Of a stretch of DNA of 57,755 nucleotides, positions 19,960 to 57,268 are shown piece after piece. This DNA comes from a virus. Position numbers and translations under genes: made by a program. The notes beneath the pieces are model-generated. The model saw only the letters and a program-made list of their open reading frames with translations. It made no database searches and was not told the origin of the DNA. Numbering within the stretch: position 1 is the stretch's first letter; each line of letters begins with the position of its first letter. Where the stretch lies: positions 1-57,755 of IMG/VR virus record IMGVR_UViG_3300009183_000110; one strand, 5' to 3'.

Positions 19960-20281
19960 GGGTACGTACCCCTTGTCTAATGAGGTAACCATCACACCCC
20001 TTCATCGCTTACCCCCTCGCCCTCGTCACCTTGACCCAACACGTTTCGCAAGGCTACGGGTGGCTACGGGTGTTGAGATAGATAAGTCCCCCTCTATGTA
20101 CCCCCGTACCTCAACCCCATCTCACCCTCCCCTCCCTCATCCTTCACCTCCATACCCTCACATCGTGTAGAAGCGTGCCTAATAGGTACGCTTTTGCACA
20201 CACATCACCTCATCCACATACACGATGACCCGATGCGATAACAGGGACCGATACCCCTAGTAGTGATAGAGTGCCTATCTC
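19960..20281. other. Gap with a motif A copy and hairpin
   Basis: C-rich non-coding stretch. It holds a motif A/B-like hybrid (GAGATAGATAAGTCCCC, motif A at 20078-20087) and a hairpin at 20171-20195. A Pro-rich frame crosses it but looks non-coding. Confidence 0.5.
20171..20195 (+). terminator. Likely intrinsic terminator
   Basis: AAGCGT(G)CC, loop TAATA, GG(T)ACGCTT, then TTTT. Follows the 19556-19959 gene pair. Confidence 0.55.
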
Positions 20282-20662
20282 ATGACACCTATCGCCTTCT
20301 ACGTTGACACATCGTCTCTCTCTAAGACCATCGCTTCCTACTTAGTAGGACGTGGTAAACAGAAGAAGCACCCCTCTAAGCACGAGGAGTTGACTCGTTG
20401 GCATCTCGCCTCTCTCTTTATGACTAAGGTCTTTGATGCCTGTGCTGAACACAACGTCACCCCTATGACAGCCGATGGACAGTTCAGCCTCAACTCGCTC
20501 ATGCTTGACGCAGAGAGAGAGCTCGACATACACATCTCTGAAACGTCCTTCGCCCTAATGGATAAGGCATACAGAGAGAGGGCGTTGAGAGAAGTGACCG
20601 AGCGAAGGCAGTTCGCTTACTCATCACTGATAAGGATGACGTCTAATGGCTTCATCAAGTAA
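20282..20662 (+). CDS. Hypothetical protein, 126 aa
   Basis: Soluble, helical, basic in the middle (GRGKQKKHPSKHEELTRWHL). No Shine-Dalgarno close by. No family recognised. Confidence 0.65.
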   Translation: MTPIAFYVDTSSLSKTIASYLVGRGKQKKHPSKHEELTRWHLASLFMTKVFDACAEHNVTPMTADGQFSLNSLMLDAERELDIHISETSFALMDKAYRERALREVTERRQFAYSSLIRMTSNGFIK

Positions 20663-20683
20663 TCGCCTTTCTTGACGACCCCC

Positions 20684-20712
20684 GTGTAGGTCTGTACCTA
20701 TTGGTGTAGTAT
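20684..20712 (+). promoter_or_regulatory. Promoter of the TTGTAG-17-TANNNT family
   Basis: GTGTAG (20684-20689), 17 bp beginning GTCTGTACC, then TAGTAT (20707-20712); includes GTAGGT-CTGT-ACCTAT. ATG of the next gene lies 9 bases downstream. The earliest member of the family and without an adjacent motif A. Confidence 0.7.
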
Positions 20713-20720
20713 CACAGTCA

Positions 20721-20921
20721 ATGAATACCACACATGCCTCATCAGGTAGTCAACACGACGCTCTTGACACCTTCATCAATGAACACAAGAGGACGTTAGG
20801 TACTAATCCCCCTCACCCTTATGCCGACCAACACCTAATGACGTTGCTCATTCAGGTGGTCGAAGCCCTTAGACCCTCTCGCTCAAACATCGACGCAACA
20901 GCCACGGGTAGCCATGGGTGA
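20721..20921 (+). CDS. Hypothetical protein, 66 aa
   Basis: First gene after the promoter at 20684. Contains ALDTFINEHKRTLG and a helical LMTLLIQVVEALRPSRS. Ends in an ATGGGTGA overlap with the next gene. No family. Confidence 0.6.
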   Translation: MNTTHASSGSQHDALDTFINEHKRTLGTNPPHPYADQHLMTLLIQVVEALRPSRSNIDATATGSHG

Positions 20922-21165
20922 TACAGGATGGACTTGGTTCCTCTTCGCAATGGAGATAGTAGGTGTATGTGGCATGTTCGCCGTTGGACGCCTGCATTGG
21001 TGGGGATGGTTGATTGTCCTACTACATAGCGTGCCATGGTTTGTGTACAGCATCAGTCATGATAAGCCCGGCTTCATAGCCATGTCCCTCATGTGGTGGA
21101 TAACACATGCCTACAACATGATGAAGTGGCGCAAAGATTCATCAACCCCCGTGCATAGACACTAG
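20914..21165 (+). CDS. Membrane protein, 83 aa
   Basis: Trp-rich protein with two to three hydrophobic segments (FLFAMEIVGVCGMFAVG, WWGWLIVLLHSVPWFVYSI, GFIAMSLMWWITHAYNM) and a basic tail. Overlaps the previous gene by 8 bases. Its TAG stop abuts motif A at 21166. Function unknown. Confidence 0.65.
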   Translation: MGDTGWTWFLFAMEIVGVCGMFAVGRLHWWGWLIVLLHSVPWFVYSISHDKPGFIAMSLMWWITHAYNMMKWRKDSSTPVHRH

Positions 21166-21184
21166 ATAGATAAGTACCCACATC

Positions 21185-21586
21185 ATGACCACAACAAACA
21201 CAGTGCTCTGTTCAGCATGCCATACATCAGTACCATGCACTCAACAGGAGTTGTACCCTGATAATGGTTGGGTCTTACCCTTCGACACCTTTGGTTACTA
21301 TGGTGGCTTCGATGACAACATGCCTGTACTACTAGGCGATAGACGTCCTCGTCAGTGGATTATGTGTCATGACTGTGTTGCGAAGTTCCTTGCCGTATTC
21401 CCTCTATTGGGAGAGACGGTAGGACCATCGTGTCATGTGGTGTCAAGAGAAGATGGTGAAGAGCCGTGCTGTAGGCACGCTTGGCGAGGCACTGAACTGT
21501 TCGGTCGATTTGAGTATGGCGTCCATACCCAGTCATCGTGGCCTGATGGCGTGTGGCATGACGACCAGCCTGAGGCGAACGGTTAG
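21185..21586 (+). CDS. Zinc-binding-like hypothetical protein, 133 aa
   Basis: Cys pairs LCSACHTSVPC and MCHDCVAKF suggest a zinc site, with a later EEPCCRHAW. Trp/Gly-rich in between. No named family; shares a C-x-x-C plus acidic style with other small proteins here. Confidence 0.65.
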   Translation: MTTTNTVLCSACHTSVPCTQQELYPDNGWVLPFDTFGYYGGFDDNMPVLLGDRRPRQWIMCHDCVAKFLAVFPLLGETVGPSCHVVSREDGEEPCCRHAWRGTELFGRFEYGVHTQSSWPDGVWHDDQPEANG

Positions 21587-21595
21587 TCCGATTTC

Positions 21596-21841
21596 TTATG
21601 CCACGGGTGACGTAGTACCTCTGTACTTACGCATCCACTCTTTGGTGTCCATGTAGCAATACAGTAGTGCTTCATTAAGGGAGTCACATTGACCGCTCTG
21701 CCCCCATGGCACATCGTCTAGTGATGATGCCATGCCTCTACTCCATGCACTCACTACCCATACCCCTGAGCGATTGGTTGCTTCGAAGTCCATATCATGC
21801 ATGTCAAACCATTTAGCGTATTGCTCTACATATGAACTCAT
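21596..21841 (-). CDS. Hypothetical protein, 81 aa
   Basis: I choose the ATG giving MSSYVEQYAKWF, with GAGAG upstream. The body (SGVWVVSAWSRGM..., CDSLNEALLYCYMDTKEWMRKYR) looks like an alpha/beta protein that combines a strand with a helix from a 'sequence-to-column' phage family, not identified. A one-base-short motif A (CTTATCTATT) lies at 21897. Confidence 0.55.
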   Translation of the reverse strand: MSSYVEQYAKWFDMHDMDFEATNRSGVWVVSAWSRGMASSLDDVPWGQSGQCDSLNEALLYCYMDTKEWMRKYRGTTSPVA

Positions 21842-21943
21842 AGTTCTCTCGCTTTTTTCTGGGTGACCGTAAAGTACTGGCATAGTGAAAGCATAGCTTA
21901 TCTATTAGGATGCTGTACAGTGATGATGAAAATAAGGAGAATC

Positions 21944-22288
21944 ATGAAAGACATTGACACACGCCATTCGTTCGATAGGTTTATCGATTGGATTGACGAT
22001 ATGAACTCGTCAGTAAAGAACGGCATCGACCCATACACCGTGTTTCACATAGTAGGGATAATGCTTATCGCATTGCCTGCACTTGGTATCTTCTCGATAG
22101 TGCTTGGTTACGCAATGGCTGACTTCATGAAAGTAGCCACGGGTATAGTGTTGTTGCTAGTAGGCACCATAGGCGCAACGCTAGGAGGCCTTGTTATCTA
22201 TAACGAAGTTGAGGATGCTAAGCAATCAGCCAAGCGCAATCACCCCGCCTACCCATACAGGCGTTCCTCTTCTAAATCCGAGGACTAA
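21944..22288 (+). CDS. Membrane protein, 114 aa
   Basis: ATG chosen for the AAGGAGA 5 bases upstream. Two transmembrane helices (FHIVGIMLIALPALGIFSIV and ATGIVLLLVGTIGATLGGLV) between a charged N-terminus and a basic, Ser-rich tail. Its 3' end runs into a short tandem repeat. Confidence 0.65.
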   Translation: MKDIDTRHSFDRFIDWIDDMNSSVKNGIDPYTVFHIVGIMLIALPALGIFSIVLGYAMADFMKVATGIVLLLVGTIGATLGGLVIYNEVEDAKQSAKRNHPAYPYRRSSSKSED

Positions 22289-22338
22289 ACATTTCTAAAC
22301 TCGAGGACTAAACATTTCTAAACTCGAGGATTAAACAC
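22279..22338 (+). repeat. 23-bp tandem repeat, about 2.6 copies
   Basis: Unit CGAGGACTAAACATTTCTAAACT at 22279, 22302 and (partial) 22325; stated here in two parts, CGAGGACTAAAC then ATTTCTAAACT. The first copy contains the stop of the membrane protein gene, so the array duplicates a gene end. Confidence 0.85.
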
Positions 22339-22408
22339 CACAGACGTCCCTGTTGTGTAAACTTCATTCAGATAGATTTATCTAAACATATAGAGAGACG
22401 GACACGTT

Positions 22409-23434
22409 ATGGCTCATCAACTAGAAATCGAATCAGACGGCACAGCACGAATGGCTTTTGCTGATAGAGAAATCCCTTGGCACAGACTCGGAACCCCTAT
22501 GAAGGGACTCCAAACCGCCGAAGCAATGCTTACCGCTGCTCAGGCAGATTTTGATGTAGTGACCACGCGTGTTGCTGTGTGCGATGACAATGGTGAACCT
22601 ATTCGCAACTCCGATGGTACGCCTGTCCTAGTTCCTGACAGTAGAGCCACGGTAAGAGTCAACCCGAATGGAACCTTTGATGGATTGGCTACGGTAGGCA
22701 CACGGTATGTGGTGCAGCAGAACCGTGAATGTCTTGATTACGCCCTTGCCATAGCCGGCGCTTCATCTGGTGATGCCGTTGTTGATACTTGTGGAGTGCT
22801 TAATGGTGGCAGAGAGTTCTTCTCATCCATAGACCTAGGCGCTCTCGTTATTGACCCAAAGGGTATTAATGATGAGATTGCTCGTTACCTACTTGTACAC
22901 AATGGTCACGATGGCAAGACCGCTATCACCTTTGCGAATACATCAATTAGAGCCGTTTGCAAGAACACAGTGACCGCAGGCATCACGGGTGCCAAACGGG
23001 TGTTTACTGCTCGCCACACACGCAACGCTGACAGAGTAATGGAAGAGGCTAACGAAGTACTCAACATCTCTAACGAATGGGCACGCCAATTCACGCAGAC
23101 GGCAGAACGTTTGTTGGCCATTCCGGTAGCACCACGCTCTAAGCTTCTCAATGACTTACTTATCGCTACATTTCCTATTGATTCAGGGGCCACGGAGAGA
23201 CAGAAGAAGAACCATGACAACGTAATGTCACTTGTTCGTGGAGTCTACGAAAACCAGAACAACGCAAAAGGCTACGGGTACAACGGGTGGTCTGCTGTTA
23301 ACGCAATCGGTGAATACCTTGACCATTACCGTGACGCGTCCATACGTGAACGCGCGCTCGCATCAATGGATTCGAACTCATGGGTGACAAGAGCTAAGCT
23401 GAAGTCGCAACATTTCCTCTTGTCGTCTATCTAA
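22409..23434 (+). CDS. DUF932 family phage/plasmid-like protein
   Basis: 341 residues. N-terminal DREIPWHRLGTPM is the typical opening of the DUF932/TIGR03299 family, with TVGTRYVVQQNRECLDYA, NGGREFFSSIDL and LVHNGHDGKTAITFANTSIRAVCKNT matching the rest of the fold. Members are common in phages and plasmids of actinobacteria; molecular role unknown. Full-length. Confidence 0.85.
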   Translation: MAHQLEIESDGTARMAFADREIPWHRLGTPMKGLQTAEAMLTAAQADFDVVTTRVAVCDDNGEPIRNSDGTPVLVPDSRATVRVNPNGTFDGLATVGTRYVVQQNRECLDYALAIAGASSGDAVVDTCGVLNGGREFFSSIDLGALVIDPKGINDEIARYLLVHNGHDGKTAITFANTSIRAVCKNTVTAGITGAKRVFTARHTRNADRVMEEANEVLNISNEWARQFTQTAERLLAIPVAPRSKLLNDLLIATFPIDSGATERQKKNHDNVMSLVRGVYENQNNAKGYGYNGWSAVNAIGEYLDHYRDASIRERALASMDSNSWVTRAKLKSQHFLLSSI

Positions 23435-23481
23435 CATCATTACGCTGTATCATTGTGTATCACGAGATTAAGTGAGGCATC

Positions 23482-23937
23482 ATGGACAACAATAGTGATA
23501 ATGAACGTTTCTATGACTTCGACTCAGAAGACGACGATGCCCCAACCACTGAAGAGTTAGCGGTATGGCTATCGGACTTCATGTCTCAATCAAGTAAGGC
23601 AGAAAAGATGTACCGGTCACACTTCTGCTCTATCGTTGTCAATCGTCTCTGGAAAGAGTTCGGCGTTGAAGGCATGTGTGAATTGATGCTCGCTATCGAT
23701 AAGCGTGCTGGGTGGATTTCAGACATAATCCTTGAGGATGCTGACCTTCATGATGCCCTCTTTGATAACCACGGGGTGTTCGACGACGATGCTGTCATAA
23801 AGGCACGTATGAGTAACCGCCTAATGGAGATGAACAAGAAGATTTGGCGCTTACGGAGAAAATACTCCAAGCTAATAGCCGCAGAAATCGTCAATGGCGT
23901 CGATACTAACGAGTCAGAAGACGCTCCAAAGCCCTAG
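23482..23937 (+). CDS. Acidic hypothetical protein, 151 aa
   Basis: Acidic N-terminus (DFDSEDDDAPTTEEL) followed by a helical body with a basic patch (KKIWRLRRKYSKLI). Its stop overlaps the stop of the convergent helicase gene by 4 bases. No family recognised. Confidence 0.65.
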   Translation: MDNNSDNERFYDFDSEDDDAPTTEELAVWLSDFMSQSSKAEKMYRSHFCSIVVNRLWKEFGVEGMCELMLAIDKRAGWISDIILEDADLHDALFDNHGVFDDDAVIKARMSNRLMEMNKKIWRLRRKYSKLIAAEIVNGVDTNESEDAPKP

Positions 23938-25853
23938 CGAGCCCTATCAAATAGGCCCATAATCATCTGTACGGTGCCATTTACGCTAGATACTTCGCCA
24001 CCTTCTACGGCTGCATCGACTACGGAACGCTTTTTATCTATTAAATCGTAAATATCTTCATCGATTGTTCCGGCTGCTAATAGATAAGTCGCCGTCACGC
24101 TGCCCTTTTGTCCCAGTCTGTGCAATCTGCTGTAAGTTTGGTCTACGTCCGCGGGTGTCCACGGGAGTTCCACGAACAGACAGTTCTCCGAAGCAGTCAA
24201 CGTGTGTCCGGTCTTTGCTGCCTGCATCGACAAAACGATTACGGGTGCCTTGTCGACGCCTAACTCTTGGAACTTCTTCTTGTTTAGTTCGACTTCCTCT
24301 ACGGACATCCCTCCTTGGATACGTAGATTGCCGTACTTATTAGACAACTCGTCGACTATCTCTCTGTGGTGAGCAGCAATCACTACCTTCTTGCCGTCCT
24401 CTAGGTGCGCATCAACCCATTCGTGTACGGAATCCATCTTCGCTTTGGCAGCAAGTCTTCTAAGTATGGACAACCGAACGAGGTGTTCATTGGCTTCGGC
24501 TCTAATCATTGCAGCCATCGCTGCTTTGTGAGACGGCTCGCCTCGTTCTATAGCAAGTTGCCGTGCGCGTTCAGCGATGTAGAACAAGATGTCCTTTTCT
24601 GCCTTGACATACTCCTTCATTCCGGCCGAGCTTCCTTCGACGACAAGCCGGCTATGGACTACGGGTGGCAACTCGGAAAGAACTTGGTCTTTTGTTCGGC
24701 GTATGTAACACGCTCCACGTAGTCTGTCGTTGAGTTCATCTAAGTGAGAGTTCCCACTGATGTTCCATTGACCAAACGAGTCTTGATACGCAGCACAATA
24801 ACGCCGGTAGAAACCCCACAACCCACCGAACTCTTTGAGTCTTCCGAGTATCTCGAGTTGTGAAGCGTATTCGTTTGGCCGGTTGGTCACGGGTGTTCCG
24901 GTAAGACAGAGAACAAGACCTTCCTTCGGAGCACTACGGGCTATCTTGACTGCTGCCTTGGTTCGTTGTGCAGTAGGCGTCTTACAATAGTGACTCTCGT
25001 CGAAAATGTACGAGCGATGTCCGGTGAGCCTCTTCTCCCAGTGAGGGATGTTGCTGTAACCAACGATGACAACGTCATATGTTTCTTCATCTGGAAACAC
25101 TTTCCTATTCGTTACGGTAGTTACTCGTCTCTCGGGTAACCACTTATTCCACTCCTTAGCCCAGTTAAGTACAAGGCTCGGTGGGCATACAACTACTACC
25201 GGATACGAATCCATTACGTACTCAACAGTGCATATTGCCTGAATTGTCTTTCCAAGACCCATCTCGTCTGCGATGAATGTTCTACGAGCGTTGGCTGCAT
25301 ACTGCACACCGGCTCTTTGATACGGAAGCAAATCACCCTGCAACTTATCTATTGCTATGACTGCATCAGTAGAGCGAGATGCTTCGATGAGTTGATTAGT
25401 CTTTTCTTCTACATGGGTTGCTTCGACCATGATTTCGTTATCAACCGTAACGTTAAACATTCCAGCCCACGCAATTACGTTCTTGACTGATGACATGGGT
25501 GCAGTCCACGCTCGTTGTTCCCCATCCCAAGACACTGCGGGTATTTGCTTGATTGCTTTAATGGCCACGCGCTCGTACGGGTAACGAATACTGATACTGC
25601 CGGCGTTTATCCATACACGAGCAGCAGATGGCTTCTTGTCTTGAGGAACAGTGAACTTCATTACATCAACGGTTACATCAAACCCGTGCTTGAGTGCGAA
25701 GTCTCTTCCTTCGGTTACAGAGGTGATAGGTAGTCGCCACAATTTCGTAAGCTTGTCCCAGCGAGCACCGGAGATTGCTTTGAGTTCATTCACTTGCTCT
25801 TTATCGAACGGAAAGTCAAGAACTATCTCGTCGTTGTCTAAATAAAGTCGCAT
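23934..25853 (-). CDS. SNF2/SMARCAL1-like helicase
   Basis: 639 residues from the ATG preceded by AGGG (an upstream GTG adds five). Residues about 1-150 hold two repeats like the HARP domain of annealing helicases (FPFDKEQVNELKAISGARWD... WRLPITS; SWDGEQRAWTAPMSS). The SNF2 ATPase follows: MGLGKTIQAI (Walker A about 199-203), FDESH (about 285-288), LTGTPVTNRPNE; the C-terminal lobe has VIVLSMQAAKTGHTLTAS and SRLHRLGQKGSVTATYLLAAGTIDEDIY. Such proteins remodel DNA at forks or help phage replication. Motif A (24080) lies antisense here, encoding TYLL. Confidence 0.88.
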   Translation of the reverse strand: MRLYLDNDEIVLDFPFDKEQVNELKAISGARWDKLTKLWRLPITSVTEGRDFALKHGFDVTVDVMKFTVPQDKKPSAARVWINAGSISIRYPYERVAIKAIKQIPAVSWDGEQRAWTAPMSSVKNVIAWAGMFNVTVDNEIMVEATHVEEKTNQLIEASRSTDAVIAIDKLQGDLLPYQRAGVQYAANARRTFIADEMGLGKTIQAICTVEYVMDSYPVVVVCPPSLVLNWAKEWNKWLPERRVTTVTNRKVFPDEETYDVVIVGYSNIPHWEKRLTGHRSYIFDESHYCKTPTAQRTKAAVKIARSAPKEGLVLCLTGTPVTNRPNEYASQLEILGRLKEFGGLWGFYRRYCAAYQDSFGQWNISGNSHLDELNDRLRGACYIRRTKDQVLSELPPVVHSRLVVEGSSAGMKEYVKAEKDILFYIAERARQLAIERGEPSHKAAMAAMIRAEANEHLVRLSILRRLAAKAKMDSVHEWVDAHLEDGKKVVIAAHHREIVDELSNKYGNLRIQGGMSVEEVELNKKKFQELGVDKAPVIVLSMQAAKTGHTLTASENCLFVELPWTPADVDQTYSRLHRLGQKGSVTATYLLAAGTIDEDIYDLIDKKRSVVDAAVEGGEVSSVNGTVQMIMGLFDRAR

Positions 25854-27356: not shown

Positions 27357-27364
27357 TCAGCGAC

Positions 27365-27574
27365 TTATCTATCTAGAACCCCATTCACGTCACCCAAATG
27401 GAGTGCGTAAAGTGAATTTGCTGCAGCAGATATAATCAGTAGCGTTGCTATGAAGTCTGATGTGTTCATCAGCCCCATGAACCCAGCAAGCAGACTCATT
27501 AGCAAGTGGAATATTGCGCTGTTCCTTAAGAAAGCTACGAATTCATCAACTACTTCGAGTAGTGATTGCGCCAC
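27365..27574 (-). CDS. Membrane protein, about 69 aa
   Basis: Start uncertain: I use GTG at 27574, which shortens the overlap with the upstream gene; an ATG at 27649 would overlap it by 100 bases. Two hydrophobic segments (IFHLLMSLLAGFMGLMN, FIATLLIISAAANSLYAL). Motif A (27363) covers the stop codon. Confidence 0.5.
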   Translation of the reverse strand: MAQSLLEVVDEFVAFLRNSAIFHLLMSLLAGFMGLMNTSDFIATLLIISAAANSLYALHLGDVNGVLDR

Positions 27575-27861
27575 TGGCTCGGCGAGTGTGCGTCCTCTAT
27601 TGATTGCTTGTGCTCTTCGCTCTCGTACATACGAATCACGTGAATGCATGGGTCTCCCTCTTCGAATTCTGACTCTTCTTCTTCGGACATTGGCAGCCCA
27701 TCATGGGTATAACAGACCGGTGGACCACACCATCCGGACTCAAGTCCTACTTTAATCCATTCATCGAACGTCATCTTTTTCTCCTCTTTCATACGGGCCA
27801 TCATATCGGAAGGGTCGAATCCCCATGCATCTTTCCCCACCACCGGTTCAGCCTTCTCCAA
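27550..27861 (-). CDS. Actinophage hypothetical protein, 103 aa
   Basis: The segment MTFDEWIKVGLESGWCGPPVCYTHDG...DPCIHVIRMYESEEHKQ...HSPSQWR matches a family I recognise from actinophages (Cys pairs, acidic centre). Start ATG overlaps the end of the upstream lysine-rich gene; MTFDEW is an alternative start. Role unknown. Confidence 0.75.
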   Translation of the reverse strand: MEKAEPVVGKDAWGFDPSDMMARMKEEKKMTFDEWIKVGLESGWCGPPVCYTHDGLPMSEEEESEFEEGDPCIHVIRMYESEEHKQSIEDAHSPSQWRNHYSK

Positions 27862-28051
27862 ATACGATTGTTACGTTGACTGACTTAATACGGGTATCTG
27901 TCGACTTTGTAATTACCTTCGGGAAGCTCGTGACGTACGTAAGAGGCTGCGTGCTGGTCACGTTACCCACTGTCACCGTACGCACTACTGGCTCGGCTTT
28001 TTTCTTAGCCGGCGATTTACGCGATGTGGCTTTCTTCTTTGGTTCTCCCAT
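27848..28051 (-). CDS. Lysine-rich small protein, 67 aa
   Basis: Strong AGGAGG 5 bases before ATG. N-terminus KKKATSRKSPAKKKAEP is histone-tail-like and may bind DNA; C-terminal half is beta-rich (VRTVTVGNVTSTQ, VNVTIVFGEG). Its 3' end overlaps the next gene's start by 14 bases. Confidence 0.65.
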   Translation of the reverse strand: MGEPKKKATSRKSPAKKKAEPVVRTVTVGNVTSTQPLTYVTSFPKVITKSTDTRIKSVNVTIVFGEG

Positions 28052-28106
28052 GATGTCCTCCTGAATAGTTAAGCAATCCTACACATCTTTAAACAATCTC
28101 ACAAGA

Positions 28107-28140
28107 GAGCCCCGTGTGAAACGGAGTCACCCGGGGCTTC
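28107..28140. terminator. GAGCCCCG-family hairpin
   Basis: GAGCCCCG (28107-28114) pairs with CGGGGCTT (28132-28139). No T run, so terminator function is unproven. First member of the hairpin family in this window. Confidence 0.45.
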
Positions 28141-28200
28141 CTTGGCGCGGGGTACTTATCTATTACAGATACAAGACTCGAATGTGCATGGACACGACAA

Positions 28201-28228
28201 GTCCCCCGAGCAATGACACTCGGGGGAC
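28201..28228. terminator. Hairpin abutting motif A
   Basis: GTCCCCCGAG, loop CAATGACA, CTCGGGGGAC, a perfect 10-bp stem. Its last two bases begin motif A at 28227. Lies just after the stop of the 28266 gene. Confidence 0.6.
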
Positions 28229-28265
28229 TTATCTATTCAGTAGGGAGCCGTTGTGGCTCTGTTGG

Positions 28266-28607
28266 TTAGACCAGTATTTCTCTGATGTACCCTACGAGTT
28301 GCTGAGCCTGCGAGCCTCTGCCGTTCGCTGTGGTGCGCTCCGTCACTCCGAGTTGCCCTGCGAGCCAGTAGAGAAAATCTAGATTGTAGATAGCCTCTAA
28401 TTCAGGAATGACATTGCCGTCCTCGTCAAAGATGGTGGATTTCCACGAGCCGTGAGATTCGTGCTTACGAATAAGGCTAGAGAGTTCCTCTGCCGTGAAG
28501 TACGGCTCGTAGAACTCGGGAGCGAACAGAGTGTGCCCGTCCCCGATAACCTTGCCTGCCGTGAGTGCTTCCTGCACTCTGTTGATGAATGTAATGTCTG
28601 ATGACAT
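28266..28607 (-). CDS. Hypothetical protein, 113 aa
   Basis: Monocistronic in a complete cassette: promoter at 28635-28663 with motif A upstream, AAGGGG before ATG, and hairpin plus motif A after the stop. Product is soluble and acidic with LYWLAGQLGVTERTTANGRG at the C-terminus. No family. Confidence 0.65.
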   Translation of the reverse strand: MSSDITFINRVQEALTAGKVIGDGHTLFAPEFYEPYFTAEELSSLIRKHESHGSWKSTIFDEDGNVIPELEAIYNLDFLYWLAGQLGVTERTTANGRGSQAQQLVGYIREILV

Positions 28608-28634
28608 TGCGTACCCCTTTCCTTAGGTGACCAC

Positions 28635-28663
28635 ACAGTACCACCGTAGGTTCAGACCTACAA
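28635..28663 (-). promoter_or_regulatory. TTGTAG-family promoter
   Basis: TTGTAG, 17 bp, TACTGT on the minus strand; contains GTAGGT-CTGA-ACCTAC. Motif A (28669) lies 5 bp upstream. Confidence 0.8.
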
Positions 28664-28694
28664 TTGGCACTTATCTATTACCAATAATTGAGCG

Positions 28695-29201
28695 CTAGAG
28701 CCACTCAAATAAATCGCCGTCAGCAATTTCGTCGTAGTCAAGGTCATTCGCATCAGCAATTGCCTGCCACACATTCTCCTCTGTCATAGGAGCGTCACCG
28801 AGATGGTCTTGCCAGCTCATGACCTTCTTCGTCTCTGCCTTGGTGATGAACACTGCGGAGCGAGCAAGACGCTCGGCTACTTCGTGAATGTCTTTGACCA
28901 ATTCTTCACGGAGACCCATTGTGTCACCTTCATCATCAGCACCGCCAGTGAATACAACATCACCCACGATAATGTCACGCCCTGCACCGTATGCATTGTC
29001 ATAGAAGTGTTGAGCAATGATGTTCTGCGAGAGACCGTCTAGTTTGCCTTCTTCGTTGCACCACATAGTCAGCGAGTTGGTGAAGTTTATTGCTTCAATG
29101 TATCCGCCCACTGCACTCTGCAGTGTTGCTAGTTCGTCACCCTCTAGGTCAAGCATTACTACTTCACCTGTGGTCTTTACTTGTAGAGCCGTCTTTGGCA
29201 T
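28695..29201 (-). CDS. DUF3846-domain protein, 168 aa
   Basis: ATG chosen for GAAGGGG upstream. The N-terminal about 100 residues (ALQVKTTGEVVMLDL..., GGYIEAINF, LTMWCNEEGKLDGLSQN, GRDIIVGDVVFTGG) match DUF3846, found in actinophages and a second copy at 40996. C-terminal extension is acidic and helical. Function unknown. Confidence 0.75.
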   Translation of the reverse strand: MPKTALQVKTTGEVVMLDLEGDELATLQSAVGGYIEAINFTNSLTMWCNEEGKLDGLSQNIIAQHFYDNAYGAGRDIIVGDVVFTGGADDEGDTMGLREELVKDIHEVAERLARSAVFITKAETKKVMSWQDHLGDAPMTEENVWQAIADANDLDYDEIADGDLFEWL

Positions 29202-29229
29202 CTCGTACCCCTTCCGTTGGTATGACCAC

Positions 29230-29258
29230 ACTGTACTGCACTAGGTACAGACCTACAC
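29230..29258 (-). promoter_or_regulatory. TTGTAG-family promoter
   Basis: GTGTAG, 17 bp, TACAGT, with GTAGGT-CTGT-ACCTAG. The upstream neighbour here is motif B (29257-29276), not motif A. Confidence 0.75.
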
Positions 29259-29303
29259 TTTTTTATCACGACCCCCAATGCACTCTCGCTCGCTCGCCGA
29301 TGA

Positions 29304-29347
29304 GAGCCCCGTCGGAGACGAACGGACTCCGCCGAAGACGGGGCTTC
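29304..29347. terminator. GAGCCCCG-family hairpin
   Basis: GAGCCCCGT pairs with ACGGGGCTT; the loop has further GGACTCCG-type pairing. Function as terminator inferred. Confidence 0.45.
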
Positions 29348-29403
29348 ATCACAACAGGGGACTTATCTATTACAAGTACGGGCTGGGTCACGGGCAAAGA
29401 AAA

Positions 29404-29430
29404 TCCCCCGAGCGGGGGGTGCTCGGGGGA
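29404..29430. terminator. Hairpin abutting motif A
   Basis: TCCCCCGAGC, loop GGGGGGT, GCTCGGGGGA; motif A starts at 29430. Located right after the 29443 gene. Confidence 0.55.
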
Positions 29431-29442
29431 CTTATCTATTAC

Positions 29443-29745
29443 CTATTGTTCGGCGAGGAGGCGGTAGCCCTCTTGCATCGCATCCAGTTGTGCGAGCGCA
29501 ATTTCCAGTGGAGCGCGGGTGATGGCCATGTAGCAATCGTAGGCCTTCATCGCAATCTCTTGACATTCGTTAGAGAGGTCGCGAACTGCGTTCTCAAAAT
29601 CGCGATAATTCTCAGCGTTCTCCTCGTCTGAGAAGCAGCAATCGCATGGTGTTGGCGTTCTTAGCGCCTCTACCATTTTCTTCATCTGGTCTGTTGATGC
29701 TTCCAGTTGCTCTTTGAGCATCTCGAATTTTTCCGTTGTTATCAT
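29443..29745 (-). CDS. Helical hypothetical protein, 100 aa
   Basis: ATG chosen for GAAGGGG about 7 bases upstream; a longer frame beginning in motif A has no Shine-Dalgarno. Long helices with PCDCCFSDEENAENYRDF suggesting a coiled-coil with a Cys motif. No family. Confidence 0.6.
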   Translation of the reverse strand: MITTEKFEMLKEQLEASTDQMKKMVEALRTPTPCDCCFSDEENAENYRDFENAVRDLSNECQEIAMKAYDCYMAITRAPLEIALAQLDAMQEGYRLLAEQ

Positions 29746-29771
29746 GGAAACCCCTTCCGTGGTCTGAACAG

Positions 29772-29800: not shown

Positions 29801-29819
29801 GGGGACTTATCTATCACCA

Positions 29820-46977: not shown

Positions 46978-47703
46978 ATGGAATCAACAACAACGGAAAG
47001 CCTGCCTCAGTGCTGGACTGACCTCAATGACGCTCTCAATGCAGGCATTGACCGAGTAATCCTGTTTGGACCTGCTGGAATCGGCAAGACCTACGCAGGT
47101 ATGACAATGGGCAATGTGGAAGCAGGCGCATACCGTCTTGTTTGCACAGAGGACATGACAAACATGGATGTAACTGGTGGCTTCATGCCAAGTAATAACG
47201 GTGGCTTCCAATGGCTTGACGGTTCTGCCCTCAAAGCATGGAACGGCAACGGCACAGTTGGCGCACGACTTATCGTGGACGAAATTGACAAGGCTGGTGG
47301 CGATGTGTTCGCAACACTTCTCGCCATGCTTGATTCACCTGAATCTGCTTCATTTGAGCATCCTGAAACTGGCTCGGTAGTCCGACCCAAAGAAGGCTTC
47401 TCTGCAATTATGACCACGAACATTGAGAACATGGGCGAATTGCCAACAGCACTCGCTGACCGTTTCCCAATCCGTATTCGTATCAACGAACCACACCCAC
47501 ACGCTCTGCTCGCATTGTCAAAGGATTTGCGTGGATACGCAATCCGTATGGCTGACGCTGGCGATGACCGTATCTCGTTGCGAGCATTTATGGCTCTTGA
47601 CAAGTTGCGTAAGAGCGTAGGCATGGAACGAGCATGCCAACTCACATTCGGCAAGCGAGCAAAGCAGATTCTTGACGCTATCGCAGTTGATTCGGTGGTC
47701 TAA
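46978..47703 (+). CDS. MoxR/CobS-like AAA+ ATPase
   Basis: 241 residues. Walker A GPAGIGKT, Walker B ARLIVDEIDKAGGD, sensor-1 IMTTNIENMGELPTALADRFP, typical of AAA_5 MoxR/CobS-type chaperones. Downstream protein has VWA and HExxH, the usual partner. Function: remodel a target with the VWA partner, target unknown. Confidence 0.9.
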   Translation: MESTTTESLPQCWTDLNDALNAGIDRVILFGPAGIGKTYAGMTMGNVEAGAYRLVCTEDMTNMDVTGGFMPSNNGGFQWLDGSALKAWNGNGTVGARLIVDEIDKAGGDVFATLLAMLDSPESASFEHPETGSVVRPKEGFSAIMTTNIENMGELPTALADRFPIRIRINEPHPHALLALSKDLRGYAIRMADAGDDRISLRAFMALDKLRKSVGMERACQLTFGKRAKQILDAIAVDSVV

Positions 47704-47705
47704 CC

Positions 47706-49253
47706 ATGAGTATCAAGCCAGCACGAAAGAGCGTTGGTAAGCCGTTCCCCTCGTCAATAGATAAGTCAGGGGGAACGGCGAAAGCCGAGCCAAACTTCAT
47801 CGGGCGCAAAGACTTAGCGCATGGACGATGGACAGTAGAAGAATGTCAAGCAGTCAGAGGCGAGCCAAGCACTGACCTGAATACTCGCACAATGTTCACA
47901 CCGTCACAGACGGACGAACTCGCTCGCTGTATTCGTGGGCATGAACTCATGCACTCAAAAGTTTCACCAAACTCTGAACAATTTGAGATGTGGGTTGCTC
48001 GTGAAATGGCTTCTGCTACTGCACTGACCGTTGTAGAGGAATTACGCATAAACATTCTTTGCCAAGAGGCAGGATTTGATGTGAAGAAGAATCTCGCTGA
48101 CGGTGGAGAACTCAATGACGGAGAACGCCTAGCGAAAACTGGAGATTGGGCTGGTGCAGTAACAGGTGCAATCGCAACTGCTGGCACTGCTGGACACAAG
48201 CAATTCCTGAACGGTATTCGCAGGCACAATCGTGCATGGGGTGACGCTCTGCTTGACATCAGCAAGCGAGCAGTCCGTGAGATGAAGAAAGCGCACAAGA
48301 CACGCTCTCTCGCCAACACAACAGAACATCACGGCATTGCGCCATACGGATTCGTTCACACAGAAAGAATCGCAGAATGGGTGGACAGGCTCGCTTCATT
48401 CCCACCACCAAAAGAGCGTGAGAAAGAAGGCAAGGCTGGTGCAGGTGCAAAGGGAATAGATAAGTCAGGCGAAGGCGAAGAAGGCGAGAAAGACCCTGCT
48501 ACGGCAGTCCATTCCAACGAAGGCGATTCAGAGGAAGGTGACAAGAAAGGTATTCCTCATCAGAGCATTACCCCAACATCACACAGTGGCACTGGCAAGT
48601 GGGCAGAACTACGCATTGAGCGTGTTCCTATGCCACGCTTACACGCTGGCACAATCGGCAAGAAGCGTGTTGCTACGAACATGGGGCGCAGACCACGCCG
48701 TATGCACCGTTACATGACTGACCCTGCAAAGCGAGTATTTGACAAGACCGTTCGTGGCAGTGGTGGCATGGTCATCATTGACGCAAGTGGTTCTATGTCA
48801 TTCACCAAAGAGCAGATTTGGCAGATTACAGATTTGGCAAAAGGCGCAACGGTGGCAATCTATTCAGACCGTCACAAAAAGAACGGTGCGAACATGTGGA
48901 TTATCGCTGATAAGGGACGAATGATTGAGACATTGGAGAACATTCCTTACGGACACGGAAACGGTGTTGATTATCCTGCAATCGTGTGGGGCGTAGAGAA
49001 TCGCCAGTATCGCAACACTCCTCTCGTTTGGATTACAGACGGTGGAGTGTGTGGCGAAGGTGATGGTTACACAGACCTGCTCGCTATGCAGTGCCTAACT
49101 TACGCAATGAAACACAACTACATTGTTGTGCCACACATTGAGGAAGCGATTGAGCAACTGTCCAACATGAACAAAGGCATAAAGCCAAAGAGCGTGTATC
49201 CGTCAATGTTCGTTCACACTTATCGTCAGCACATGGGCGTGAACATTCAGTAA
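47706..49253 (+). CDS. HExxH/VWA protein, partner of MoxR ATPase
   Basis: 515 residues. HELMH (79-83) is HExxH-like; MIDAS DASGS (359-363) with TDGG marks a CobT/VWA C-terminus. A Glu/Gly/Lys-rich linker separates them. Two motif A in frame: SSIDKSGG (47757) and KGIDKSGE (48456). TAA is followed by motif A (49253). MoxR-VWA pairs can be proteins for metallo-cofactor insertion or toxin-like defence; which is not visible. Confidence 0.85.
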   Translation: MSIKPARKSVGKPFPSSIDKSGGTAKAEPNFIGRKDLAHGRWTVEECQAVRGEPSTDLNTRTMFTPSQTDELARCIRGHELMHSKVSPNSEQFEMWVAREMASATALTVVEELRINILCQEAGFDVKKNLADGGELNDGERLAKTGDWAGAVTGAIATAGTAGHKQFLNGIRRHNRAWGDALLDISKRAVREMKKAHKTRSLANTTEHHGIAPYGFVHTERIAEWVDRLASFPPPKEREKEGKAGAGAKGIDKSGEGEEGEKDPATAVHSNEGDSEEGDKKGIPHQSITPTSHSGTGKWAELRIERVPMPRLHAGTIGKKRVATNMGRRPRRMHRYMTDPAKRVFDKTVRGSGGMVIIDASGSMSFTKEQIWQITDLAKGATVAIYSDRHKKNGANMWIIADKGRMIETLENIPYGHGNGVDYPAIVWGVENRQYRNTPLVWITDGGVCGEGDGYTDLLAMQCLTYAMKHNYIVVPHIEEAIEQLSNMNKGIKPKSVYPSMFVHTYRQHMGVNIQ

Positions 49254-49441
49254 TAGATAAGTCCCTGCCTCTGTTGGTTTCTTGGTTGTTCCCAACAGAG
49301 GCACTGGTGCTAGTGTCTCTCGGTAATCGTGTTTCTCCTTTGGTGGGTACTACACATTGCCGAGAGACATTGGCGTTTCACTTATCTATTCATGTACCAC
49401 ATCTGACACTTATCTATTACTAATCAAAAAAAGGATTTTTT

Positions 49442-49645
49442 ATGACCGAGCCATCTGAATCAGAATTACTAACAGACTTGCAGGCGAGTCTTACGAGCGC
49501 AATTAGATACTACTCTGCAATACAAGACGAGATAATCGCAGGCACATACACGCCACAGAAAGCGTACGAGGACTACGATAATCTGATGTGGAATGAAGGC
49601 AATAACATTATGTCCGTTCTTGCTGAACTTGCTGATAGACAGTAG
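49442..49645 (+). CDS. Hypothetical protein, 67 aa
   Basis: AAAAAGGATTTTTT before ATG (as before 46206), with two minus motif A (49380, 49408). Helical acidic (TDLQASLTSAIRYYSAIQDEIIAG). No family. Confidence 0.6.
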   Translation: MTEPSESELLTDLQASLTSAIRYYSAIQDEIIAGTYTPQKAYEDYDNLMWNEGNNIMSVLAELADRQ

Positions 49646-49647
49646 TC

Positions 49648-50094
49648 ATGGAGATTCTGCTATTCATTCTTGCGCTACTCACAGAGCCGTACACGCTCGC
49701 TCTGTCACTACTACTCATTCTCACTCAACTCGTTACCGTGACGCTCACACAGAGCCGTACAGTGATAGATAAGTCAATCGCTCGCTATCGCTACTGGCGC
49801 ATGGCTCTCTCTACGCCACGCCACACCATGAGAAGTGATGACAAGCCGAGCGTCTGCCACAGTGACAGGCTCACCTCTGTCACGCCAGCAGAGCGCAAGA
49901 TGTGTAGCGCACCGTCAATGACCAAAGTGTTGATTGCGCTCGCCACCAAAAATCCCAAGAGAGCCCCGCTTGATTCTGACTCCTTCGGCTTGATAGGAGC
50001 CCCGCGAAAATCGTCTCGGATTACTCTCGGGTACGCTGCGCCCCCGTTTAATTTTTCGTTTTTTCTGAGATTCATGTTCTCTCCCTCACGTTAG
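49648..50094 (+). CDS. Possible membrane protein, doubtful full length
   Basis: N-terminal hydrophobic segment (ILLFILALLTEPYTLALSLLLILTQL) is plausible, with motif A in frame (TVIDKSIA, 49765), but the frame then overlaps the minus gene 49791-50075 completely. Likely real only at its start, if at all. Confidence 0.35.
   Translation: MEILLFILALLTEPYTLALSLLLILTQLVTVTLTQSRTVIDKSIARYRYWRMALSTPRHTMRSDDKPSVCHSDRLTSVTPAERKMCSAPSMTKVLIALATKNPKRAPLDSDSFGLIGAPRKSSRITLGYAAPPFNFSFFLRFMFSPSR
49791..50075 (-). CDS. Membrane protein, 94 aa
   Basis: GGGAGAG before ATG. Basic N-terminus, then two transmembrane segments (ALLGFLVASAINTLVID, LWQTLGLSSLLMVW). Favoured over the overlapping plus frame. Confidence 0.55.
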   Translation of the reverse strand: MNLRKNEKLNGGAAYPRVIRDDFRGAPIKPKESESSGALLGFLVASAINTLVIDGALHILRSAGVTEVSLSLWQTLGLSSLLMVWRGVERAMRQ

Positions 50095-50123: not shown

Positions 50124-50498
50124 TTAATCGATTTTAAGTTTCTTAACTATTTGATGAACCCGCTGCCGAGACAAATCAAACTCATCGGCGATTTCCCGAA
50201 GGGACTTTCCCTCGATACGCATTTCTTTAATAATTTCATTTCTTTTGATGTCCGTCGCAGGACCCGGCTGAAATGGACCCCACTGCCAGCCAGCAATTTC
50301 TTGCATTTTTGAAACACGTTCTGGATGGAGTTGATTTTTACGATATCTCTGACGAATATATCCGGACCATGCCCCTAGGGAAATATCATTTTCTTGAAAT
50401 TTTTCGATATGAATTGCCGGAATTCGAGAATCCCCTTCTCGGGAAATGTACTGCTCGAGAGCTCCTGTATAAATATTGAATTTTGTGAGGTTATCCAT
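50124..50498 (-). CDS. Helicase-associated-domain and HTH protein, 124 aa
   Basis: ATG chosen for AGGA upstream. GAWSGYIRQRYRKNQLHPERVSKMQEIAGWQW is a helicase-associated (HA) domain; SLREIADEFDLSRQRVHQIVKKL is a sigma4/HTH-like end. Upstream is a LexA-type palindrome (50514). Probably a DNA-binding regulator, SOS-controlled (inference); candidate reader of motif A. Confidence 0.75.
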   Translation of the reverse strand: MDNLTKFNIYTGALEQYISREGDSRIPAIHIEKFQENDISLGAWSGYIRQRYRKNQLHPERVSKMQEIAGWQWGPFQPGPATDIKRNEIIKEMRIEGKSLREIADEFDLSRQRVHQIVKKLKID

Positions 50499-51676: not shown

Positions 51677-52354
51677 ATGTTGACGGTGGTGGATGAACTG
51701 AATCCTGGTCAGCCAGAACGTTGGCAAGATGCTGCCAAAATCTGTGTTTCTCAAATATTCGACTTAATAGATAAGTCCCTCGACCAAATGAACTCCCAAC
51801 CGCACGTAGCTCGAGTTGACAGTTCAAAAAATCAAGAAATTGACCCATGCCTGGAAGCTGTTCTGGAAGGCCTTCATCGCCTGGATGTTCAGTTTGAAGG
51901 AATGGTGAATAATTCTAAATGTTTTGACTCAGACCAGATGTATTGGACAGAAGAGTGGAAAATCCTTGGCATCACCGCGGCAGCGGCGGGGATAAAAAAT
52001 GGAGAATTATTGCCATTACTGGGAGCTCCAGGGCCACTGGATAATCATCCAGAATTTGAAAAAATTGACAATCCCGCAGCGGCCGGCGAATTTGACTCCT
52101 GGATGATTCGCGAGCAAATTACAGAAACCTTGATTCGTAAGCAAATGGATTACGGGCATAACAACATCGCACGCTTTGGAAGAATCGGATTAATTATCAG
52201 GACTCATGACAAGCTAGCGCGCTTGAGGAATTTACATCTCTCAAGCAACAACCCCCAGAACGAAGCACTTACTGACACGTATGTCGATATCATTGGTTAC
52301 TCAGCCATCGGTATGATGTGGGAGCGCGGCTGGTTTTTATTGGATATCAAGTGA
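51677..52354 (+). CDS. DUF1599/nucleotide-modification-like protein, 225 aa
   Basis: C-terminal half (RKQMDYGHNNIARFGRIGLI...HDKLARLRNLH, LTDTYVDIIGYSAIGMMWERGW) matches the DUF1599 all-alpha pyrophosphatase-like fold of phages. N-terminal MLTVVDELN is read from motif C, and motif A lies in frame (FDLIDKSLDQ, 51767). Role in nucleotide metabolism is family inference. Confidence 0.75.
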   Translation: MLTVVDELNPGQPERWQDAAKICVSQIFDLIDKSLDQMNSQPHVARVDSSKNQEIDPCLEAVLEGLHRLDVQFEGMVNNSKCFDSDQMYWTEEWKILGITAAAAGIKNGELLPLLGAPGPLDNHPEFEKIDNPAAAGEFDSWMIREQITETLIRKQMDYGHNNIARFGRIGLIIRTHDKLARLRNLHLSSNNPQNEALTDTYVDIIGYSAIGMMWERGWFLLDIK

Positions 52355-55558: not shown

Positions 55559-55772
55559 TTAATACTGACAAATTTTCTCAAAAAAGAAAAAAAGAGCAAA
55601 TTCGCAAGCTTCCGGAGGTTTTTTGCGTTTATTCCTTTTGCGGGTGGAAAGCTATACGGGTGTTGCTTTTGTTTATGGCCGGCGATAAAGTTTCTTTTGC
55701 TGGGTCGGTGGATGCTCAAACCACACAAAAAGGCGCGATTGCTAACGGACTTCCGGCCCAGCCCTTTCTCTT

Positions 55773-55835
55773 CTAGTAGGAACTCCACCATAGGATGAAA
55801 GCGTAAATAATTCCCAGCATGATAAAAGTGACCAT
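55773..55835 (-). CDS. Micro membrane protein, 20 aa
   Basis: ATG 4 bases after the WhiB stop. One transmembrane helix (VTFIMLGIIYAFILWW). Very short; plausible only because of its position. Confidence 0.4.
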   Translation of the reverse strand: MVTFIMLGIIYAFILWWSSY

Positions 55836-55838
55836 AAG

Positions 55839-56189
55839 TTAGTTACCCCACATTTGTGCGAGTGTTGGGCGTATTGGTTTTATCTTGCGCCTTCTTTGTT
55901 CTGCGGCTAGTTGTCTTGATGTGAGTCCTGCCCATACTCCGTGCATATCAGCTGGCGGGAACTCTAGTGCGTACTCCAAACAGTTATCTATCACTGGGCA
56001 TGTTCTGCACAATGCTCTCGCCTGAGCGATATAAGTAATGTCCTTATGTTGTTTGGGGAACATTAGTTCGGTCTTTCCTTTACAGGCTGCCATTCCAAAC
56101 CAAGCTTTTTTAGGTATAGCTAGACTTTCTACAGGTAAGGTATTTTTATTGGGTAATTTTTGTTGGGTCTTTTTGTTGTCTGATTCCAC
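55839..56189 (-). CDS. WhiB-family regulator
   Basis: 116 residues. AACKG, CRTCPVIDNCLEYAL: the four Cys (C...CxxCxxxxxC) for a [4Fe-4S] cluster. GVWAGLTSRQLA is the conserved turn, followed by a basic tail RRRKIKPIRP. WhiB proteins are actinobacteria-specific and common in actinophages; act with sigma region 4. Confidence 0.92.
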   Translation of the reverse strand: MESDNKKTQQKLPNKNTLPVESLAIPKKAWFGMAACKGKTELMFPKQHKDITYIAQARALCRTCPVIDNCLEYALEFPPADMHGVWAGLTSRQLAAEQRRRKIKPIRPTLAQMWGN

Positions 56190-56266
56190 TATGTGTCCTT
56201 GTGTAAAAGCTTATTTTTAAGTACTACACAATTATTAGTACACTCGTACTCACAGGGGGGTGTTAA

Positions 56267-56404
56267 GTGGATTCTGTGACAATGCCCGCAGAGCAGAAAA
56301 AGGGTAGGTGTTTCTACTACTCCCTAGAGTTTGTTTACTCCTACATAGAAGAGTTAGACACCTATGGTGATTACACGGACTTTTCTTACACGTGGATGGG
56401 TTAA
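56267..56404 (+). CDS. Small hypothetical protein, 45 aa
   Basis: GTG 7 bases after GGGGGG. Tyr-rich (CFYYSLEFVYSYIEELDTYGDYTDFSYTW). No family. Confidence 0.5.
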   Translation: MDSVTMPAEQKKGRCFYYSLEFVYSYIEELDTYGDYTDFSYTWMG

Positions 56405-56464
56405 AAAGGCGTTTCTTTATCTATCTACCCAGATATGGAGATAGTTGAGTCAAAGGTCGTGGGA

Positions 56465-56602
56465 TTATTCCCAGCGGTATCCTTCTCGTATTTTCCTGAA
56501 GTGCTCACGCATGGAGCGAATTAGGACAATCAAGCCAATAACGATAGGCAAGGAGATGATGAAGGATGCTGTTGCGGCTAGTTTTTGGCTTTTTGTTGGC
56601 AT
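56465..56602 (-). CDS. Small membrane protein, 45 aa
   Basis: Transmembrane helix (ASFIISLPIVIGLIVLI) with basic ends. Lies 30 bases after the Ntn hydrolase stop. No family. Confidence 0.55.
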   Translation of the reverse strand: MPTKSQKLAATASFIISLPIVIGLIVLIRSMREHFRKIREGYRWE

Positions 56603-56632
56603 GAGTTAATTATATATCCTGTGATGACTTAT

Positions 56633-57268
56633 CTATTGAGACTTAGGTGCAGGGGGTTTTTCGGCTCCCTGTACGAAGGCGTGGTACGGCGCTCCCGTAT
56701 ATGGGTCAAACTTTGCGGCCACATTGATTGCGCGCATTGCTATTTTCTTTGCCATTGGCAGGGTTAGTTTGCCTTTTGGCATCTGTGTATAGAGAGAACC
56801 GAGTGCGTATTGGGCTCCGCTCCCTATGGCAAACAAGCCAGAGGAGTCAGATATCCAGGAGTAATCTCCATCAATGATATAGATAGTGCCGTTTATGGCC
56901 ATGAATACAGTGGAGGCATGCTCCGCCATGTGAGTCTTTTCATCTTTATCAGGCATTGCGTATCCGGAAGACTCGAATACTTCTCTTAAAGCTGGGATAA
57001 ATTTAACTGTAACGAAGTGGTCGAGCTTCTTGCCTTTAAGTGTTGGCGGTGCCGGCGGAGGCTGGAAAGCGTGATGCAGTATGTTTATGGCGCGCAAATC
57101 CCCTGCCGCGCCCAACAAGTAGCGACCATTTAAGGCTATTTTCGTATTCGTCTCTTTTAGACTGACAAATTGCGAAATCAAATTAGACCCGCCCTCAAGC
57201 TCTGAGATGCGAGAATCAGTTGTTGCTATACAAAAGCCATCACCCTGTATGCCAATTATTGTTGTCAT
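56633..57268 (-). CDS. Proteasome-like Ntn hydrolase
   Basis: 211 residues. After Met removal the product begins TTIIGIQGDGFCIATTDSRI: Thr1, Asp17 and Arg19 match proteasome beta positions exactly; NTKIAL may hold the equivalent of Lys33 after an insertion; AIGSGAQYALGSL matches the Ser129/Gly131 segment. Probably a self-compartmentalising or stand-alone protease; may help process phage or host proteins. Stop lies in motif A (56627). ATGA overlap with upstream gene. Confidence 0.8.
   Translation of the reverse strand: MTTIIGIQGDGFCIATTDSRISELEGGSNLISQFVSLKETNTKIALNGRYLLGAAGDLRAINILHHAFQPPPAPPTLKGKKLDHFVTVKFIPALREVFESSGYAMPDKDEKTHMAEHASTVFMAINGTIYIIDGDYSWISDSSGLFAIGSGAQYALGSLYTQMPKGKLTLPMAKKIAMRAINVAAKFDPYTGAPYHAFVQGAEKPPAPKSQ

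Follow-up and report, generated by a model that had tools for sequence, protein, structure and literature searches.

The stoperators of the cluster A mycobacteriophages L5, Bxb1 and TipsytheTRex are asymmetric 13 bp sites present in 20–30 copies, mostly oriented with transcription and located in promoters and intergenic spaces, with a consensus which is specific to the subcluster and paired with cognate specificity (PMC6550527, PMC9283540). In T4-type phages, PeSL cassettes are described in which an intergenic stem-loop is combined with a promoter among small genes (PMC4503421). The cluster K mycobacteriophages contain start-associated sequences (SAS), GGGATAGGAGCCC, near start codons (PMC12699233). 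Here a repeated 10 bp word, ATAGATAAGT, hereafter motif A, is described in 57,755 nucleotides of viral DNA, together with its counterparts in related phages. This stretch, referred to as the window, is the whole of IMG/VR record IMGVR_UViG_3300009183_000110 (G000); it corresponds to part of a 158,714-base phage record, G001, window position x being G001 position 92351 − x.

The main finding is that the word is rewritten, lineage by lineage, at conserved places. Among 14 related records the exact 10-mer is matched in seven; leaving G001 aside, six of 13 contain one to five copies and seven contain none. It is rare in relatives because the lineages carry their own versions, 13 of which were distinguished by unsupervised k-mer counts and logos. 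They are AATAGATAAGT, the version of the window, and GGTAGATAAGT, GTGTAGGTAAGT, GAGTAGATAACT, GAGTAGATAAGT, TAATAGATAACT, ACTAGATAAGT, AAAGGATAATGTAA, GGGGGATAAGTC, GGATAGTGCA, GTGGGATAAC, GGGGTAGATAAGT and GAATAAAGATAGC. The loci compared were the best 80 of 113, two of them from the same phage as the window. An array of its own word was found in 42 of the 80, in 40 by a scripted rule and in L046 and L047 by their logos, while the remaining 38, mostly encoding more distant AAA proteins, have other repeats or none in the stretch examined.

In the long records the own version is present in 66 copies in the full 158.7-kb G001, 67 in G002, 29 in G003, 63 in G004, 53 in G005, 56 in G006 and 43 in G007, nearly all of them in one gene block, which is split over both record ends in G003 and G007. 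Foreign versions occur in 0–5 copies per record, with two exceptions: G003 and G005 share the same word, and the words of G002 and G004 overlap, giving 17 and 69 cross-matches. An eighth long record, G008, has a quite different word in 29 copies. An initial annotation of the window had allowed for rejection of the repeat should related phages that have these genes lack it. For the exact word this is nearly what is seen, seven of the 13 relatives having none, but the objection is overturned because the relatives examined have their own version at matching places. No publication describing the word or such a lineage series was found among titles and abstract openings of the open-licence literature, and megablast against named phages gave no match.

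Within the window, motif A (logo at..gtAATAGATAAGTc) has 65 exact matches, 39 on the plus strand and 26 on the minus. The initial annotation had the plus-strand count right, whilst its total of 64 (39 and 25) missed one minus-strand copy. The 65 exact copies compare with a chance expectation of 0.17 (largest count 2 in 100 dinucleotide shuffles) and, for 40 permuted motifs, with 0.225 on average and at most 5; with up to one mismatch, 76 places compare with 6.6 on average and at most 66 for the permuted motifs. The strong excess claimed over an expectation of about 0.1 is thus borne out, and the count is nowhere near that expected by chance. From first to last, the copies span 20078–56636. The main array, which has copies on both strands, spans 27363..49774, and the clustering reported for 27–50 kb (59 of 64) is upheld with 59 of the 65 copies. 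Outlying copies are found at 20078..25352 (four: 20078+, 21166+, 24080+ and 25343−), at 51767..51776 on the plus strand and, at the end of an HslV-like gene, at 56627..56636 on the minus strand.

Placement was assessed with gene calls from a simple finder of our own. Between 20 and 50.2 kb, 52 of 63 copies are mostly intergenic, in a region where intergenic DNA amounts to 30% (binomial P 8e-18). The initial annotation also described an orientation mostly along transcription, with inverted copies right after gene ends, and both observations are reproduced. Between co-directional genes in G001, 36 copies are on the same strand and 9 on the opposite one, and within genes the numbers are 6 and 3. 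The corresponding ratios between co-directional genes are 36:16 in G002, 22:4 in G003, 43:14 in G004, 39:7 in G005, 42:7 in G006 and 24:4 in G007, all seven records thus being biased the same way. Nine inverted copies lie between plus-strand genes, seven of them 3–78 nt past a stop and two at 127 and 155 nt. Overall, 21 of the 65 copies fall within −10 to +20 of a same-strand stop; one at 49253..49262 (plus strand) overlaps the last stop-codon base of the gene at 47706–49253, is followed by a possible hairpin, and is succeeded by inverted copies at 49380 and 49408. The distance from the end of a copy to the next same-strand start is within 30 nt for just two of the 65 and exceeds 200 nt for 36. 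Motif A is asymmetric, and in the logos about 9–14 bp are near invariant with free flanks.

The positions of the copies are conserved between lineages. Across six records, window genes with motif A within 320 nt upstream have orthologs with their own A in 70 of 81 pairs, against 25 of 60 for genes without it; where A is within 100 nt downstream, the orthologs have it in 69 of 84 pairs, compared with 21 of 57 where it is not. In neither case are the pairs independent of phylogeny. The gene for an AAA protein is a case in point. Of 20 selected array-bearing representatives, which include some close relatives, all 20 have the own version no more than 300 nt upstream of this gene and 18 have it within 100 nt past its stop, in 13 of these at 51–60 nt and therefore inside the next reading frame. 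In the window this copy, at 47757..47766 on the plus strand, is located 54 nt past the AAA stop, inside the gene at 47706–49253 and in the loop of a possible hairpin with the stem CCGTTCCCC...GGGGGAACGG. For that gene, a VWA label would follow from the usual MoxR–VWA pairing but is supported by no family search. In several lineages motif A often occupies the loop of the hairpin past the AAA stop, the stem differing in sequence with its pairing, judged by eye, retained. A possible hairpin at the start of this gene (window 47706–47800) is present even where there is no A in the loop, for example in L023. Several array genes of the window have no ortholog in some relatives.

Intergenic copies form part of repeated cassettes. 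The fullest order, of which there are many variations, is stop, A, hairpin, variant a, sometimes an element D, one to three A, a promoter-like element B, and gene. The hairpin is GAGCCCCG...CGGGGCTC, variant a is GATAAAAAAGT-like, and D is GACGGTGGTGGA. The fullest cassette precedes the AAA gene (46700..46978, plus strand), with A at 46700, the hairpin at 46724, variant a, further A copies at 46851, 46880 and 46899, B at 46916–46942 and the gene start at 46978.

The B pattern, GTAG.T..G.ACC followed by TA...T, has 18 copies in the window and none across 20 random sequences matched to it in first-order composition. Motif A ends within 40 nt upstream of 13 of them, with a gap of 6–10 nt in 12, compared with 12% of random intergenic points. 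On the plus strand these are the elements at 35176..35202, 35951..35977, 37164..37190, 38628..38654, 39453..39479, 40406..40432, 40939..40965, 42366..42392, 43833..43859 and, in the AAA cassette, 46916..46942; on the minus strand they are those at 28635..28661 and 29772..29798, and one at 30654..30680 which A abuts directly (0 nt). The element at 29230..29256 (minus strand) has no exact A within 40 nt and is abutted by a variant a, TGATAAAAAAGT; those at 20686..20712 and 44794..44820 (plus strand) and at 31234..31260 and 32176..32202 (minus strand) also have no A within that distance. A same-strand gene follows within 150 nt of 15 of the elements, in 14 cases starting 53–70 nt from the B start. 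Near relatives have a core AAGTCTG...CC...GGTA in common upstream of the AAA gene while motif A is different. Within the block, the core-like hits that are preceded by a same-strand A at no more than 150 nt number 12 of 14 in G001, 17 of 19 in G002, 6 of 8 in G004, 12 of 17 in G005 and 11 of 16 in G006; in G007, where the whole record was scanned, they number 6 of 26. In G002, 10 of 19 promoter cores are fused with motif A. The core pattern also matches 9–16 times outside the block in G001, G002, G004, G005 and G006.

The intergenic hairpins, exemplified by that at 35019..35056 (plus strand), number seven by a strict pattern and 12 in a looser repeat family within window 28101–46770. The family has no obvious T-run, and it was without a match in an Rfam scan of 12.8–57.8 kb, in which two tRNAs alone passed the gathering score. 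These hairpins may be terminators or structured RNA. Element D, embedded in CGTTAG..(A/T)TGACGGTGGTGGATGA, occurs at window 38575–53722 and in most related loci, with seven copies in G001 and 5–8 in each of G002 to G008, always on a single strand within a record; it is nearly invariant between lineages while motif A changes.

Given its asymmetry, its near-invariant 9–14 bp with free flanks, and its placement close to promoter-like elements and stops, motif A is best read as a protein-binding DNA site. Action on DNA is also favoured by its location ahead of the start sites inferred for B. On balance it is likely, though well short of assured, that A is an asymmetric operator of about 10–14 bp for a phage-encoded, sequence-specific regulator controlling the accessory, and probably early, gene block. 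Bound just upstream of or over the B core, such a regulator would control initiation, presumably by repression. Bound past stops or within operons, it would hinder elongation or reinforce termination in the manner of a stoperator. The word seems to have been altered throughout the regulon along with the specificity of the protein, and this would keep the regulation of co-infecting relatives separate.

Three proteins encoded in or near the array were considered as readers of A. They are the product of an XRE-type helix-turn-helix (HTH) gene (HTH_3) inside the array at 44585..44791 (plus strand), in which the RKTVNRIEN recognition helix is nearly constant; that of 46206..46688 (plus strand), which has an HTH-like end by eye and no Pfam or PHROG match; and a protein with an HA domain and a sigma-70 region-4-like HTH at 50124..50498 (minus strand), with the nearly constant LSRQRVHQI. 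All three are judged unlikely because their HTH segments hardly change across lineages while the word varies. A screen of gene calls for genes which track the word, comparing G003 and G005 with G004, yielded several weak candidates, including Vwh, a protein of 81 aa and a wing-like one of 82 aa. Vwh, encoded outside the window at G001:32242-32757 on the minus strand, is the best candidate regulator. It is a fast-diverging predicted winged-helix protein, ranking third in divergence among 91 families (mean identity 0.32, median 0.60). Its AlphaFold model combines a winged helix with long helices (mean pLDDT 87), Foldseek matches it, at low TM-scores and with a best E of 1.3e-3, to MntR, MarR and PadR proteins, and the best match of its profile to a PDB sequence is a PhiH1 repressor-like protein (E 0.013). 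By reciprocal best hit it adjoins a conserved, weakly TrmB-like protein in seven of eight long records, the TrmB match being weak at 25.0 bits against a cut-off of 25.6. An open reading frame of at least 80 aa directly follows the TrmB-like gene at 40 of 49 loci (49 of 66 were examined). The pair of conserved, weakly TrmB-like protein and hypervariable winged-helix protein is also seen at L123:13242-14206; in an alignment of these proteins, A1, the winged-helix partner has 95–121 aa in six distant rows, for which no A array is known, and 117–171 aa elsewhere. As a reader of A, Vwh is a tentative and rather doubtful candidate.

A number of observations weigh against the operator reading. The protein which reads A is at the candidate stage only, and the covariation of Vwh with the word is at most suggestive. 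In a partial Mantel test over the 13 lineages with both word and Vwh (r 0.29, p 0.055), Vwh does not stand out; other rows of A1 were unused, and L202 and L194 were represented by the Vwh rows of L200 and L192, whose printed sequences match. Among the 16 proteins present in all 12 lineages used, genes missing anywhere having been dropped, Vwh ranks second (p 0.098) behind the product of 47706–49253 (p 0.009). Sliding windows along Vwh place the top signal in its C-terminal helices (r 0.52, p 0.002, with no correction for window number), with a weaker one in the recognition helix (r 0.31, p 0.034). The Vwh proteins of G003 and G005, which have the same word, are only 60% identical, and are 48% and 54% identical to that of G004; in the helix region, identity is 0.62 both for G004–G005, with different words, and for G003–G005. 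A simple roadblock, moreover, leaves the inverted copies unexplained. Some copies of A lie in hairpin loops, and enclosing stems of at least 8 bp exceed the control in G001 (17 versus 10%), G002 (16 versus 8%) and G007 (11 versus 5%). Finally, a tyrosine integrase (PF00589) and a serine recombinase (PF00239) were not found in any of seven records, which may be incomplete, and a two-peptide scan for the conserved TrmB-like protein in 84,980 genomes returned one relative, located on a 21-kb contig (L238) from a metagenome bin, a result which speaks against prophages being common. Lysogeny-immunity logic may therefore not apply, although the distant relative DSL-LC01, considered below, is predicted to be lysogenic (PMC10611076). 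All of the records are metagenomic.

Of the alternatives, the one which survives best holds that A is an activator site for the adjacent B promoters only, the other copies being relics of shuffled cassettes. The tight spacing of 6–10 nt in 12 of the 13 B elements with a nearby A fits an activator, as does the same-strand A before most core-like hits in the blocks of G001, G002, G004, G005 and G006. Yet, for 65 copies of A, only 13 of 18 B elements have one within 40 nt, 21 of the copies are close to same-strand stops, and copies past stops in general and past the AAA stop in particular recur between lineages. Moreover, few core-like hits in G007 have an A, albeit in a scan of the whole record, and in the other five records the core has its matches outside the block. 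An activator role alone is thus unlikely.

A second alternative places the action of A in RNA, as a terminator or antiterminator, a processing site, or the target of a small RNA which changes between lineages. The orientation along transcription fits this proposal, as do the copies past stops before hairpins and in the loop past the AAA stop, where pairing appears by eye to be preserved. The enclosing stems noted above in G001, G002 and G007 point the same way, and in each of six records the 60 nt downstream of A give better folds than shuffled sequence does. Against this, stems of at least 8 bp are no commoner than in the control in G004 (9 and 9%), G005 (9 and 9%) and G006 (4 and 8%), most copies have none, A is kept just upstream of a promoter-like element, and Rfam recognises only the two tRNAs. 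A hairpin-loop RNA motif was rejected as a general rule: stems of at least 7 bp enclose 12–27% of copies compared with 11–23% for shuffled flanks, and the excess for stems of at least 8 bp is about twofold over the control in three of six records and absent in the other three. Action in RNA is accordingly regarded as distinctly unlikely.

Alternatively, the reader could be a host DNA-binding protein, with the word tracking a different host in each phage lineage. The lineages may indeed differ in host, and sigma-70 region 2 was not found in seven of seven records, such that these phages may depend on host transcription factors; a search with PF00940 for a single-subunit RNA polymerase gave no signal even in control genomes and is uninformative. 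The sites of host regulators are, however, normally alike in related hosts, and G003, G004 and G005 have median protein identities of about 80%, yet the word of G004 differs. A host reader is therefore considered quite improbable. Least probable is a reading in which the cassettes serve mainly in recombination, as joints at which genes are shuffled in the manner of T4 PeSLs, and recombination keeps A alike. The repeated cassette order given above and the several array genes without an ortholog in some relatives are in its favour, but whole cassettes should then homogenise, whereas near invariance is limited to the roughly 9–14 bp of A, and the copies in coding sequence hold their position as well.

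If A is an operator, it is attractive to consider a wider role. In these apparently non-temperate phages of 145–170 kb, an operator code rewritten across the regulon in each lineage could form an immunity-like self/non-self system without lysogeny, in which a phage regulates its own accessory block and spares that of a co-infecting relative, Vwh being the fast-changing reader; invariant elements, GACGGTGGTGGA for instance, would perhaps be read by the adjacent, conserved, weakly TrmB-like protein. This scheme is speculative and on the whole improbable, and it is weakened slightly by the published prediction for DSL-LC01, a distant lake relative which its authors predict to be lysogenic (PMC10611076). 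DSL-LC01 (L237, OQ999401, 5000-50000), a published lake phage genome from a metagenome, was one of nine distant records recovered in a search with the AAA protein. The 45 of its 129 kb that were examined contain other repeats, CTAAAGATGTTA in 16 copies and ACGACGAAAGGA in 15, the latter mostly just before starts, and have genes for an AAA ATPase, an HslV subunit and WhiB in one region. Two WhiB-like genes are present in the phage studied here, at window 55839–56189 (by Pfam) and G001 95036–95350 (by eye). The occurrence of WhiB in the window and in DSL-LC01 suggests an actinobacterial host. The 21-kb contig L238, which belongs to this phage group, is in a metagenome-assembled genome titled Gammaproteobacteria, where it is probably a stray phage sequence. 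Window 140–12892, near the accessory block, is taken up by one open frame of 4250 aa.

Among known systems, motif A most closely resembles a stoperator, as the initial annotation had proposed for a word of different sequence. Like stoperators it is asymmetric, has more than 20 copies per genome (65 here), is predominantly oriented with transcription in all seven records, is frequent at promoter-like elements and in intergenic DNA, and has a consensus which differs between groups. It differs from them in copy number (29–67 against 20–30, the 29 being from a record which ends inside the block), in belonging to records of 145–170 kb in which an integrase was not found, in being nearly confined to one block, in its sequence, in the inverted copies and hairpins of its cassettes, and in having a reader which is a candidate only. 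Entries 7TZ1 and 7R6R, looked for as homologues of the L5/TipsytheTRex immunity repressor, were not among the PDB matches of three candidates at E up to 1, a search which did not take in every gene. With shared features on the one hand, and on the other a different copy number and genome size and neither an integrase nor a repressor homologue found, motif A is classed as stoperator-like and is not filed as a member of the group.

The start-associated role suggested by the initial annotation is not supported. The motif is, like the SAS, short, multi-copy, mostly intergenic and mostly outside structural genes, but unlike them it almost never ends within 30 nt of a same-strand start (2 of 65), and it differs between lineages. 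T4-type PeSL cassettes are said to have been the subject of work by Arbiol in 2010 and Comeau in 2014. As in PeSLs, a repeated intergenic cassette with a stem-loop and a promoter-like element lies here between small genes of unknown function; the order hairpin–a–A–B is found in several gaps, with seven strict hairpins, and thus supplies both stem-loop and promoter-like element. Unlike PeSLs, these cassettes include an additional, lineage-specific, multi-copy operator-like word. Together this evidence suggests a lineage-specific gene-control code in a large bacterial virus and its relatives. The 13 versions of an operator-like word, present in many copies at matching places in uncultured phages, provide a natural series on the co-change of a transcription factor and dozens of its sites while the regulon stays intact and, should the operator reading hold, a means to type and trace such phages in metagenomes. 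Stoperator-like logic would then extend beyond small temperate mycobacteriophages to phages of far larger size, where an integrase was not found.

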